Positions 7,449 to 43,464 of a stretch of DNA of 44,105 nucleotides are shown here, in pieces. This stretch comes from Myxococcota bacterium. Lineage in GTDB: Bacteria > Myxococcota_A > Polyangia > HGW-17. Positions within the stretch are counted from its first letter, which is position 1. Each line of letters opens with the position of its first letter. The notes beneath the pieces are model-generated. The model searched no databases. It worked only from the letters and a program-made list of their open reading frames with translations, and was not told where the DNA came from. The stretch spans positions 1 to 44,105 of the forward strand of contig JAHJMN010000131.1 of assembly GCA_018821305.1 (NCBI GenBank), written 5' to 3'. Made by a program: the position numbers and the translations under genes.

Positions 7449-7615
7449 GATTTTAGGATTCAAAATACTATTGTCACAATTAAGATATAATAGGTGCATG
7501 GTGATTATGTTATTGTAATTGTTGATATTAATAAAAGTTTTTTCTAATCAGAATTTCTTTTGATTTGGATCGGTTTTTGCCTAATATAGTGCCGCCCTGT
7601 GGCAAAGGTTTAATT

Positions 7616-8521
7616 ATGGAGAAATTATCTAAGTTTTATCCTGTTTTAGTAAGTCTTCTGGCAATTGGTCTTATAAATGCCGGAGCTGGAATCGCATTTG
7701 CGGATATAGTGAGTTATTATTTATACTCAAAACCGGTTTATGAGCCACCACAAAAAATGTTATCCGGTAAGCCTGTGAAAGTGGAAAAAGAAAAAGTACA
7801 CACAGGCGATTTGCTTTCGGTACTTAAAAGAAATATGTTCTGCAGTACCTGTGAGCCAATATCCTTGGATGATATAAATAAAAGTGGAAAACCCGGTGAG
7901 GCCACTGCTGTTGTTGACAGTCTGGAAAATGCGGCCTTGCTGACTACAATGGTTGCAGATAATCCTAAATATTCTCTTGCGGCTATTTCTGTTGAAAAGC
8001 CAGAGGAAAAAACTCTTCTCGTGGGAATTGATGATGACGTCAGTGGGGCTAAAGTTACGCTGATTGAAGATAAAAAAGTTACGTTTATTAAGGATGGCAA
8101 AGAAAAAGTCCTGTTTTTACTTAAAACAGCACCTGCTCCAATTGCTAAACCTGTACCAGGGGCTGTGTCTAGCCCGGAAGATGATCTCGCCAGTAAAATT
8201 AAGAATATTGGGCCCAATAAATATGAGGTTGAACGTAGTGTTATTCTTGAATTTATGAAAAATATGGCCGGTGGAGTTAAGGGGGCCAGAGTTATGCCGG
8301 ATCCAAATGGTGGATTCAGGGCAGCTTTTGTAAGATCAAATAGTATTTTCTATAAATTAGGACTTCGATCAGGAGATGTGATTAAGTCCGTAAACAACAT
8401 ACAATTGGATTCATTTGATAAGGCCCTGCTGATGTACACACAGATGAAAAATGCAAATCATATAACTGTGTCGGTAAACAGGCGTGGGAAAACTGAAAAT
8501 ATAGATTTTTCAATTAGATAG
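7616..8521 (+). CDS. gspC: T2SS inner-membrane protein GspC
   Basis: GspC links the inner-membrane platform to the GspD secretin. I use ATG 7616, preceded by AAAGG, rather than the upstream in-frame TTG at 7565. The 301-residue product has one N-terminal membrane helix (about 6-33) and then a periplasmic homology region (LLSVLKRNMFC, through a beta-rich stretch ending KVTFIKDGKEKVLFL). A C-terminal PDZ domain contains FRAAFVRSNSIFYKLGLRSGD and VIKSVNNIQL. This is the usual GspC layout. It opens the gsp operon. The last base of its TAG stop is the first base of repeat copy 2. Removing the element plus one target copy restores a TAA stop at the same codon, so the protein end is unchanged. Confidence 0.88.
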   Translation: MEKLSKFYPVLVSLLAIGLINAGAGIAFADIVSYYLYSKPVYEPPQKMLSGKPVKVEKEKVHTGDLLSVLKRNMFCSTCEPISLDDINKSGKPGEATAVVDSLENAALLTTMVADNPKYSLAAISVEKPEEKTLLVGIDDDVSGAKVTLIEDKKVTFIKDGKEKVLFLLKTAPAPIAKPVPGAVSSPEDDLASKIKNIGPNKYEVERSVILEFMKNMAGGVKGARVMPDPNGGFRAAFVRSNSIFYKLGLRSGDVIKSVNNIQLDSFDKALLMYTQMKNANHITVSVNRRGKTENIDFSIR

Positions 8522-8662
8522 TTACTGTCCTGAAATACAGTTTTTCAAATTTTGCGCAGATTTTTTACTCAGGACAGTAACCGCAAAGTGTTGAAAATAT
8601 TAATAGTGGCCGGATAGAATTTTTAATAAAATTCTTCGCGAAGCGAATTTCCGGACACGAAA
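8521..8662 (+). repeat. 142 bp MITE-like element, copy 2, with 6 bp target duplication
   Basis: This is the full-length counterpart of copy 1 in the opposite orientation. It is flanked by perfect direct repeats TAGATA at 8515-8520 and 8663-8668, the sign of a transposition-type insertion. The 61 bp palindromic half is at 8521-8581 and the structured half at 8582-8662. The stems CCGGA/TCCGG (8610-8614 with 8650-8654) and GAATTTT/AAAATTC (8617-8623 with 8628-8634) replace CCTGT/ACAGG and GGATTTT/AAAATCC of copy 1 with both sides changed together. It sits inside the operon between gspC and gspD and carries no reading frame for a transposase, so it would have to be mobilised in trans. Its RNA hairpins could alter the gspC to gspD transcript ratio. 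Confidence 0.92.
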
Positions 8663-8681
8663 TAGATAATGAGAGGGCACA

Positions 8682-11288
8682 TTGAAAGTACTTTCTTCTT
8701 TAACAGTAATAGCAATTTTATTAACACTTTCTTTTGACGCGGCAGGACAGCGAACTCGGGATTATGGTAAATACAAATCTCGTCCATATAACAGGCCTGG
8801 TGTAACCAAACCTGGTGCAACAGGAGCTGGCACTGAAGGAGCCGTCGGAAGTGCCAAAGATGATCCTAATTTCAATGAGTGTAAAAACATTCCTCAATAC
8901 CGCCGGATGAAAGTCACTCTTAAACCGGAAGCAAAACTTACGGAACTCATTGGTTGGATCAGTTCCCTTACATGCCGCAAGTTTATACTTACAAAAAACA
9001 TTCGCGCTCAGGAAGTTACAATCTATTCACCCACCGCTGTTACGCCAAACGAAGCATATAGAGCATTTTTAAGTGCTCTTGAAGCTATGGGGCTCATGGT
9101 AGTAAAAAGTGGGGCTTATTGGAAAATTACTGAGTCTGATAAAGCTAAAAACATGGTTCATCCAGTGATTGGACCCGGTGGTAATGCAGGAACTGGTGAG
9201 GTTCTTGTTACAGCTATGCTTCGAGTAAAATATGCTGATCTTCAGGATGTCAGTGATACTCTTGGTAAATTTAAAAGCAAATATGGTGAAATTACTGTTT
9301 ATAAGCCCACTAACCTCATAATCATTACGGATCTTGCAGATAGTATAAACAGGCTTAAGAGAATATTGAATTACCTTGATGTTGAAGGGGTAAATAATGA
9401 AAAAATCTGGGTTGTAAATGTTAAATATGGTGATGCAGACGAAATTGCAAATAAATTAAAGGAAGTTTTTGATACTCAGGGTGGTTCGACAAAACCCACG
9501 ACACCGACGGCCTCTACTTATCAAAGAAACACAAGAAGGAAAGTTTATACACCTGCCACCGCAACTCAATCAAAACCAAGTACTGTTGGAAGCAAGTCAT
9601 CCCTGTCAAAAATAATCAGTGATCAGCGTACTAACAGTCTTATTATTAAAGCAGACGATACGTCATATTTACAAGTTCTTTCTCTCATAAGAAAACTGGA
9701 TGTACAACTACCCGGTGGTGAGGAGAAAATACACATCGTCTACCTTGAAAATGCCGATGCTGAAGAAATGGCTGGTCTTTTATCCACTTTGACTGGTTCG
9801 GGGACCGGGACAAGACCATCTACATCCAGAAGAACAACATCACGAAGTACTTCAAGTCGGTCTACCACCTCTTCTTACCGTAGCCCTTACGGTGGTGGGT
9901 ATGGTTCGTACGGCAGGGGAAATACTCAGCAAACGCAGAGTATTTTTAAAGGTCCCGTCCAGATGCAGGCTGATCGCAGTACAAATGCTCTAGTTATAAT
10001 GGCTTCCAGCAAAGATTTTCTTCAGTTAAGAAGAATTATAAAAGAACTTGATAAACCGAGACGACAGGTATTTGTTGAAGTTACAATAATGGAAGTCAGT
10101 CTTACAAAAACTCAGAATCTGGGTATGTCCTTCCATGGTGGAAACACCGTTGGAACTGGCGATCAGCAGTCGATTTTATTTGGAGGGTCAATCTCCAATC
10201 AGGCAACAAACTCGATTATAATGAATCCCCTTTCTCTCATGGGTTTTGCCGTGGGTCTTCGCGGACCGGAAATTGCTGAAGCTGAAAGTCTGTTAGGCAT
10301 TCCCGGTATCACATTCCCATCTTTTGGTGTGTTTTTTCAGGCTCTTCAGACAAATAATGCAGTAAATGTTATCTCAACCCCACATCTTTTGACAACAAAC
10401 AATGAGGAAGCTGAAATTTCTGTTGGAGAAAACGTACCTTTTCAGGCTGGTGTATCTGGAATTTCTGGTCTCGCAAGTTCTCTTGGGGCTTCTTCAGGTT
10501 TGCTATCCACAGGTGTTGCTCCAATTCAGCGCCAAGACGTTGTTTTGAAGTTAAAAATAGTGCCGCATGTCAATCAGAGCAATTTCGTACGCATGGAAGT
10601 TGATCAGGAAATAAATGAAGTTAAGTCGATTGATCAGATAGTAGGTCCAACAACATCAAAGAGGAAAGCTTCCACAGTTGTTGTTGTTAAAGATCAGCAG
10701 ACTGTTGTTATTGGTGGACTTATGACCGAAAAATTAAAAACTACGGCTACGAAAGTTCCACTTCTCGGAGATATTCCACTTTTCGGTTACCTGTTCAAGT
10801 CTACGGTTAAAAATGTAGAAAAAACAAATCTTTTGATTTTTATTACTCCATATATCATACGTGATGAAAGCGATTTAAGGCGGATTTTTCAGGAAAAAAT
10901 TAAGCAAAGGAAAGAGTTTATAGAAAAATTTGCCGCGTTTAAGGATCATGATATTGATCAAACTATAAATTATAAACACAAGTGTGGAATGTTCGAGGAA
11001 ATAAATCGCGAAGCCCGGAAGATGGAAAACGAATCAGAATTGAAACGCAAAGCCATGGAAGAATATAAAGAAATAAATACAGGTGGTCCTGTTGTGGTCA
11101 GAACTTCGGATAGCCAGAATCTCACAAAAACTCTGAAAAAAATAAGAGATGAAGATGAGAAAGCTGAAAAAGATGAAGAAAAAGACCTAAAAAAAGAAAA
11201 AGACTTAAAAAAAGGAAAAGAAGATAAAAAGATTATAAAACCTGTAGATTCAAAGAAAACGGACAAGAAAAAAGGGAAGACGAGGTAG
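8682..11288 (+). CDS. gspD: T2SS outer-membrane secretin GspD
   Basis: GspD forms the outer-membrane export channel. The start is a TTG at 8682 preceded by GAGAGG. The first codons give a good Sec signal peptide (KVLSSLTVIAILLTLSFDAAG) and no ATG would preserve it. The 868-residue product shows N0 (about 75-150), N1 (about 170-230), N2 (about 240-345), N3 split by a Ser/Thr/Gly-rich loop (about 350-465), and then the secretin barrel domain, including VPFQAGVSGISG, the KIVPHVN segment and VVIGGLMTEKLKTTATKVPLLGDIPLFGYLFKS. After about residue 730 comes an unusually long charged tail rich in Lys, Glu and Asp. A pilotin-type S-domain role for that tail is possible but not shown. It lies directly downstream of repeat copy 2. 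Confidence 0.95.
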   Translation: MKVLSSLTVIAILLTLSFDAAGQRTRDYGKYKSRPYNRPGVTKPGATGAGTEGAVGSAKDDPNFNECKNIPQYRRMKVTLKPEAKLTELIGWISSLTCRKFILTKNIRAQEVTIYSPTAVTPNEAYRAFLSALEAMGLMVVKSGAYWKITESDKAKNMVHPVIGPGGNAGTGEVLVTAMLRVKYADLQDVSDTLGKFKSKYGEITVYKPTNLIIITDLADSINRLKRILNYLDVEGVNNEKIWVVNVKYGDADEIANKLKEVFDTQGGSTKPTTPTASTYQRNTRRKVYTPATATQSKPSTVGSKSSLSKIISDQRTNSLIIKADDTSYLQVLSLIRKLDVQLPGGEEKIHIVYLENADAEEMAGLLSTLTGSGTGTRPSTSRRTTSRSTSSRSTTSSYRSPYGGGYGSYGRGNTQQTQSIFKGPVQMQADRSTNALVIMASSKDFLQLRRIIKELDKPRRQVFVEVTIMEVSLTKTQNLGMSFHGGNTVGTGDQQSILFGGSISNQATNSIIMNPLSLMGFAVGLRGPEIAEAESLLGIPGITFPSFGVFFQALQTNNAVNVISTPHLLTTNNEEAEISVGENVPFQAGVSGISGLASSLGASSGLLSTGVAPIQRQDVVLKLKIVPHVNQSNFVRMEVDQEINEVKSIDQIVGPTTSKRKASTVVVVKDQQTVVIGGLMTEKLKTTATKVPLLGDIPLFGYLFKSTVKNVEKTNLLIFITPYIIRDESDLRRIFQEKIKQRKEFIEKFAAFKDHDIDQTINYKHKCGMFEEINREARKMENESELKRKAMEEYKEINTGGPVVVRTSDSQNLTKTLKKIRDEDEKAEKDEEKDLKKEKDLKKGKEDKKIIKPVDSKKTDKKKGKTR

Positions 11289-23738: not shown

Positions 23739-23754
23739 GTGCGTGTCTTGTAAT
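23739..23754 (+). repeat. Remnant terminus of the 142 bp element
   Basis: GTGCGTGTCTTGTAAT matches the copy 1 terminus GTTCGTGTCCTGTAAT at 14 of 16 positions. A TAAAAATC word follows, as in the internal stem of the element, but the rest is not recognisable, so this looks like a decayed copy. Confidence 0.45.
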
Positions 23755-23845
23755 TCAATTTCAATAAAAATCGAACATGTTTACAAAAACATATTATCCA
23801 GAACACTATAATAATTTCAAGGTCTTCATTCTTAATGACCTGTAT

Positions 23846-23858
23846 TGACATTTTGTCC
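23846..23858. promoter_or_regulatory. GACA-N3-TGTC palindrome
   Basis: TGACATTTTGTCC is the inverted-spacer form of the palindromes upstream of gspC and lies between the divergent Cys-rich lipoprotein and aconitase genes, about 125 bp upstream of the lipoprotein start. Possible operator of the same regulator. Confidence 0.4.
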
Positions 23859-24256
23859 AAACGTGAAAAGAACGTTTTTCAGAACACTAACTGTCTAACA
23901 GAAATCTCAACCCCGGAGAAGTCCTGATTATTCTCGATAAGATAGAGAAAAAATAAAAAAGGGCAACATTTACTTGATACGGGTATTCAGAAACTGATAA
24001 AATTCATTTTGTAGCCCAAATATACAATCGTGTAAAAAGTAACGAATATAAATATGAAAAATTTTCAATTTATCCTGTTGTCAAAGCCATATGATTAGTT
24101 ATAAATAGCTGAACGAAGTTTTTTTGATATTACAACATCGCAATATTCTGACCGAACGGCAGTGAGCGAAATGAATTAAAAAACCATGATTCACCAGGCT
24201 ATGTCGCCTGTTACAACAAATTTGAAACCCCTGAAAACAACCATATGGAGGAACGA

Positions 24257-43403: not shown

Positions 43404-43464
43404 GTTATTGTCCTTATCCAAAATTCGGTAAAAAATTTGATTTCTTGTATTTCAGGACAGTAAC
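43404..43464 (-). repeat. 61 bp palindromic half-element, copy 3
   Basis: This is the same length as, and aligns with, 83-143 of copy 1, including AAAAAATTTGATTT in the centre and the perfect terminus TTTCAGGACAGTAAC. The other arm has changed to GTTATTGTCCTTA. The structured half found in copies 1 and 2 is absent. Flanking hexamers TAATTA (43398-43403) and TAACTA (43465-43470) differ by one base and may be a degraded target duplication. The element lies 29 bases before the next gene's start. Confidence 0.85.

Follow-up and report, generated by a model that had tools for sequence, protein, structure and literature searches.

A MITE family with a likely ISNCY-type mobiliser, one copy of which completes the gspC stop codon in a Myxococcota bacterium

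In the 44,105-nucleotide stretch of Myxococcota DNA analysed here (the window), a 142-bp non-coding element lies between gspC and the secretin gene gspD of a T2SS operon, and its first base completes the gspC stop codon. This one genome holds several hundred non-coding copies of the element and a multicopy insertion sequence (IS) with the same ends; insertions follow a TANNTA target rule, and a sister genome retains the empty site. The element is very probably a non-autonomous MITE that depends for its movement on the DDE transposase of the resident ISNCY-type IS, acting in trans, and sequence comparison gives good support for a new MITE family with a likely mobiliser.

The insertion at the gspC stop codon

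The features at this place are as follows.

7565–8521, + strand: gspC-like gene (PDZ domain), whose TAG stop takes its G from the MITE
8515–8520, + strand: left target-site duplication TAGATA, read directly and supported by family data
8521–8662, + strand: MITE, subfamily A, 142 bp
8521–8538, + strand: left terminal inverted repeat GTTACTGTCCTGAAATAC; its first 17 bases are those of the right end of the insertion sequence
8521–8581, + strand: hairpin 1, with a 13-bp perfect stem that holds the terminal repeat and its inverted copy
8606–8658, + strand: hairpin 2, with an outer stem, two inner stems and compensatory changes between copies
8645–8662, − strand: right terminal inverted repeat, inward TTTCGTGTCCGGAAATTC; family form GTTCGTGTCC[TG]GAAATTC
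8663–8668, + strand: right target-site duplication TAGATA, read directly and supported by family data
8671–8677, + strand: secretin-gene ribosome-binding site GAGAGGG (conserved in the same-genus genome)
8682–11288, + strand: gspD secretin gene, TTG start

Direct reading confirmed that perfect TAGATA direct repeats bracket the 142 bp, as the preliminary description had stated. GspC ends in D-F-S-I-R, followed by a TAG whose G is base 1 of the MITE. When the MITE and one repeat are removed, the flanks join as CAATTAGATAATGAGAGG, giving AGA-TAA and then TGAGAGGG. TAGATA is not a rare hexamer in the window (14 matches as compared with 23 expected), and because it is common by itself the pair alone proves nothing; what carries the claim of an insertion is the family together with the empty site.

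A protein search found a GspC match in 55 of 59 genomes. In the one genome of the same genus, GspC is 64% identical and has the same end, DFSIR, and the gspC–gspD site is empty, reading GATTTTTCAATCAGG-TAA-CGAGAGGG...TTG. The joined flanks of the window (GATTTTTCAATTAGA-TAA-TGAGAGGG...TTG) align to this junction with a sole gap of 3 bases past the ribosome-binding site, and nearby relatives also lack the element there. The empty site that had been suggested as a check thus exists, and the same comparison upholds the proposals that the ancestral gspC ended in TAA and that the MITE supplied the G of the present TAG while leaving the protein intact. The secretin ribosome-binding site does begin just beyond the element, outside the right repeat, as had been noted. 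GspC is unchanged by the insertion, and the gspC–gspD spacing grew by 148 bp.

Architecture of the element

The 142-bp element can be classed as a type-II-like MITE. Its terminal inverted repeats are imperfect (GTTACTGTCCTGAAATAC / GTTCGTGTCCTGAAATTC); it is shorter than about 500 bp, with no transposase gene and no ORF of 100 aa inside; its duplication is of fixed length, its site is empty in a relative, and its ends are common to an autonomous element. The two hairpins are non-random (z −5.2 as DNA, −3.7 as RNA). Both halves fold, 98.2% of stem cells pair over 34 copies, and double-sided changes occur at five stem pairs, mainly as G-C/A-U and U-A/A-U exchanges in hairpin 2. This pattern indicates that the hairpins persist between copies; the changes may go back to few independent events, and they do not demonstrate an RNA function. 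No Rfam family matches the MITE, and a terminator function was rejected because its operon strand carries no consensus terminator.

The family may be modular. Under this reading, which we consider rather unlikely, the 142-bp element would comprise two hairpins, each with the terminal repeat facing both ways, and a single 61-bp hairpin would be a minimal mobile unit, moved by a DDE transposase and assembled into longer composites. Solitary copies of 61–63 bp have near-matching flanks, and composites at one locus (L040) swap halves between subfamilies; both observations fit modularity without proving it.

Copies, target and age

Three further members of the family lie in the window.

2–143, − strand: second complete subfamily A copy, then TAAATA
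23739–23891, − strand: degenerate 153-bp copy of subfamily B type, flanks TGTCCA / TGTCTA
43404–43464, − strand: 61-bp solitary hairpin of the family, flanks TAATTA / TAACTA

The genome as a whole contains 117 perfect left hairpins and 341 right ends followed by TANNTA (at most one mismatch). The exact terminal motif occurs 605 times (320 and 285 by strand), as compared with 1 match per strand for a control motif, and 0 times in 19 relatives, the same-genus genome and 18 others. A sample of 1.63 Mb, about 31% of the genome and made up of contigs chosen partly for known copies, yielded 235 non-overlapping matches, of which 109 are full-length, 66 belonging to subfamily A and 43 to subfamily B. 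This suggests some 300–350 complete copies in the genome, a figure drawn from sampling that partly favoured copy-bearing contigs. Subfamily A copies typically measure 141–142 bp and subfamily B copies 153 bp; forms of about 61, 89, 206–207 and 245–273 bp are rarer. Tandem copies have one common 6-mer between them (e.g. L009, L017).

Within several MITE copies lies another hairpin, unrelated to those of the family and about 65 bp long (CTCTCACTGTTTTC...GAAAACAGTTG...GTTTTAGAC), mostly at the same spot in the left hairpin (L110 440–720, L111 1280–1530, L160 16203–16447, L213 9015–9221, L216 12603–12875, L220 9224–9429, L224 18212–18483). It apparently has a GAC repeat and could be a nested small element or part of an amplified composite. 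A further palindrome, short and GC-rich (CTTACGCTTCCGCGCTTCGCTGCGCGAGAGCGCTATA and variants), lies in the spacer of some copies (L160 16203–16447, L216 12603–12875, L231 4298–4514).

Among 101 end pairs, picked by spacing only, 54 had an exact 6-bp duplication, one had 5 bp and none had 7 bp, while control sets with swapped partners averaged 4.5 exact 6-bp matches and never exceeded 10. The duplicated sites have the consensus TANNTA. These counts support the 6-bp target duplication claimed at gspC and agree with the expectation that other genomic copies would carry 6-bp repeats.

None of the 102 assessable full-length copies was spanned by an ORF, though about 85% of the sampled sequence was called coding by a crude caller. 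A gene ended at the duplication in 16 of these 102 copies, as compared with 9.3% of non-coding TANNTA sites (Fisher p = 0.054), a difference that is not significant, and a preference for stop codons was rejected. Landing on a stop codon, which the preliminary description had emphasised, is recurrent and not clearly enriched, and follows largely from the TANNTA target and the intergenic location. The description of the element as caught in the act was likewise too strong: the gspC copy is 91.7% identical to its nearest sampled sister, whereas copies have a median of 95.7%, with identity as high as 99% in some pairs, so that it is older than most and not among the newest.

With the whole element as query, no match was found at the DNA level in 58 other genomes. 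The left hairpin pattern of subfamily A had no exact match in 84,980 species genomes or in viral contigs, a set that possibly leaves out the source genome, and no relative of the IS transposase was found in the same-genus genome at E 1e-10. Since the same-genus genome lacks both the MITE and the transposase, the MITE expansion may be recent and specific to the source lineage.

The likely mobiliser

A Pfam search of the genome found one DDE_Tnp_1 gene, at the start of contig C216. It encodes a transposase of 450 aa from the likely start, with no internal stop, whose best match in the NCBIfam library is NF033593, 'ISNCY family transposase' (E 1.2e-87, 294 bits); the cut-off of 325 bits is not reached, and the protein is accordingly classed as related to that family and not as a member. 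The right part of the IS, on C216, ends in ...CAGGACAGTAAC, followed directly by TATTTA, and the left part, which begins GTTCGTGTCCTGAAATT, overlaps contig C33 by exactly 76 bp, giving a reconstructed IS of about 1,679 bp (about 1.68 kb). The IS is split over contigs, with no single assembled copy seen with both flanks; its left end occurs at no fewer than six contig termini and its right end at four places. Immediately beyond the IS, the flanking sequence is TATTTA or TAACTA at all the left ends and at three of the four right ones, and the fourth right end (C154) has a variant CGAAC, then TAACTA.

One IS end has GTTCG and the other GTTAC, an asymmetry that matches subfamily A. The MITE has two different ends, and over about 17 bp the left IS end GTTCGTGTCCTGAAATT corresponds to one of them and the right IS end GTTACTGTCCTGAAATA to the other; beyond this, MITE and IS have no resemblance, so that the likeness is confined to the ends, as is reported for type II MITEs and their partners (PMC10969869). 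The earlier claim of a non-coding mobile element is borne out by the multicopy family, the lack of a gene in the 142 bp and the location of a likely mobiliser.

The six near-identical left ends suggest that the IS spread recently. Assembly breaks fall inside IS copies at the ends of contigs C33, C83, C170, C172, C175 and C182, hiding copy number and places. A 121-bp degraded IS fragment, 87% identical, lies at L240 1484–1604 (contig C116) and suggests an older presence of the IS. At two loci (L250, L251) the sequence directly outside the IS right end is a (TAAC)n run that can reach about six units.

We infer that transposition occurs in trans, through a staggered cut and with little effect on the operon. 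The transposase would bind the ends of about 17 bp (GTT..TGTCCTGAAAT), cut the TANNTA target with a 6-bp stagger and join the element, and gap repair would leave a TANNTA copy on each side. Where the T and A that open a TAA or TAG stop are also the last two bases of the target, as happened at gspC, insertion would rebuild TAG: the TA comes from the target and the G from the element, which in most cases has this base at the start of either end. A TA-ending target combined with a G-starting element can thus make stop-codon insertions silent.

Relatives of the insertion sequence

A scan of genome contigs for the transposase yielded no confirmed relative because the search patterns were short; among plasmid records, 131 contain relatives. 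Terminal repeats and flanking duplications were sought in eight relatives, four of them distant and from the same phylum and four on named plasmids. In five, elements of 1.66–1.70 kb were found, with ends GTTCCCACCCGGAAACCC (two), GTGCCCATCCAGAAAC, GTGCCCGTCCATAAACG and GTTTCCGTCCATAAA, and also including GTGCCCGTCCATAAACGG, and with duplications TACCTC, TACCCA, TAGCTA, TAGGCTA and TAGCCTA. These five thus have GTKNNNGTCCNNAAA-type ends and duplications of 6–7 bp; two have A-C-C for G-T-C-C. A sixth (L236) gave a similar result that is ambiguous, another (L234) has ends CAACTTCCCGTCTTGAAA / CTACTTCCCGTCTTGAAA with GCTAG outside, and in the last (L253) the same search found no terminal-repeat and duplication structure. 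Many end positions were scored per locus, so that a single duplication is weak; the support lies in the fact that the loci agree with one another in length, in end sequence and in having a TA-type duplication. Both MITE ends, GTTACTGTCCTGAAA and GTTCGTGTCCTGAAA, conform to the approximate shared form GTKNNNGTCCNNAAA.

The resident IS therefore resembles the ISNCY insertion sequences matched by NF033593 (Sinorhizobium, Microvirga, Marinobacter) in full-length transposase homology, in a length of 1.66–1.70 kb, in GTKNNNGTCCNNAAA-form ends and in TA-type duplications of 6–7 bp, and differs from them in that the transposases are only 27–31% identical. The ISDol1 group, another ISNCY group with duplications of 6–7 bp, is a further lead.

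The IS1202 family is likewise filed under ISNCY and has a transposase of similar length (394–507 aa), but its ends are 5'-TGT...ACA-3' and its duplications 3–5, over 15 or 0 bp (Harmer et al., 2023, PMC10132070); membership was rejected for the IS described here, which has GTT... ends and 6-bp duplications.

Comparison with known MITEs

A limited literature search turned up no published MITE that belongs to an ISNCY-type element. As described in a review, the Chunjie MITE of Geobacter uraniireducens (Chen et al., 2008, via PMC10969869) is similar in its direct repeats and many intergenic copies; by the same description it differs in sequence and in size, at 178–235 bp with 38 fuller copies. 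Presence of a MITE in an operon without disturbance of that operon was reported earlier for Chunjie, to judge from a title cited in the review, and one Chunjie copy disrupts a phosphate uptake operon according to the text of that review (PMC10969869). Correia elements of Neisseria and ERIC elements of enterobacteria are also short, intergenic elements with terminal inverted repeats, high copy number and hairpin-forming transcripts (PMC10969869); they have other ends and hosts, whereas the MITE here has a TANNTA (6-bp) duplication.

Alternative explanations

Two stable hairpins between two operon genes might be expected if the sequence were an original component of the T2SS operon with a regulatory or structural task, such as an attenuator or processing hairpin, and the direct repeats were due to chance. 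The direct gspC–TAA–ribosome-binding site–gspD junction of the same-genus genome and the absence of the element from nearby relatives speak against such an origin, as does the presence of the same element at well over a hundred unrelated places; the empty site refutes it, and we consider it extremely improbable, while a later regulatory role is possible. One such role, suggested by analogy with Correia elements cut by RNase III, would be that of a MITE since recruited between gspC and gspD for the processing or folding of RNA. The stable hairpins, the compensatory changes between copies and the position inside a transcribed operon are consistent with co-option; the terminal-repeat architecture may, however, maintain hairpins alone, and with 91.7% identity to its nearest sister the gspC copy is no more conserved than others. 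On balance we regard co-option as unlikely.

The palindromic repeats, their abundance and the presence of three Y1_Tnp genes in this genome could also recall REP/BIME-type repeats moved by a Y1 (HUH) tyrosine transposase (RAYT). HUH insertion is not known to make a target duplication, and the family here has one of 6 bp; moreover, the three Y1 genes are IS200-type-like, of about 147–161 residues, and are not bounded by MITE ends, and the ends of the MITE match the DDE insertion sequence. Membership of the REP/RAYT group was rejected on these grounds, and that origin has very little probability beside transposition by the DDE enzyme. An IS200-type transposase gene adjoins an apparent CRISPR array on contig C8 (L169), the repeat of which translates as ATGGAGCCGCTTCTTTC...
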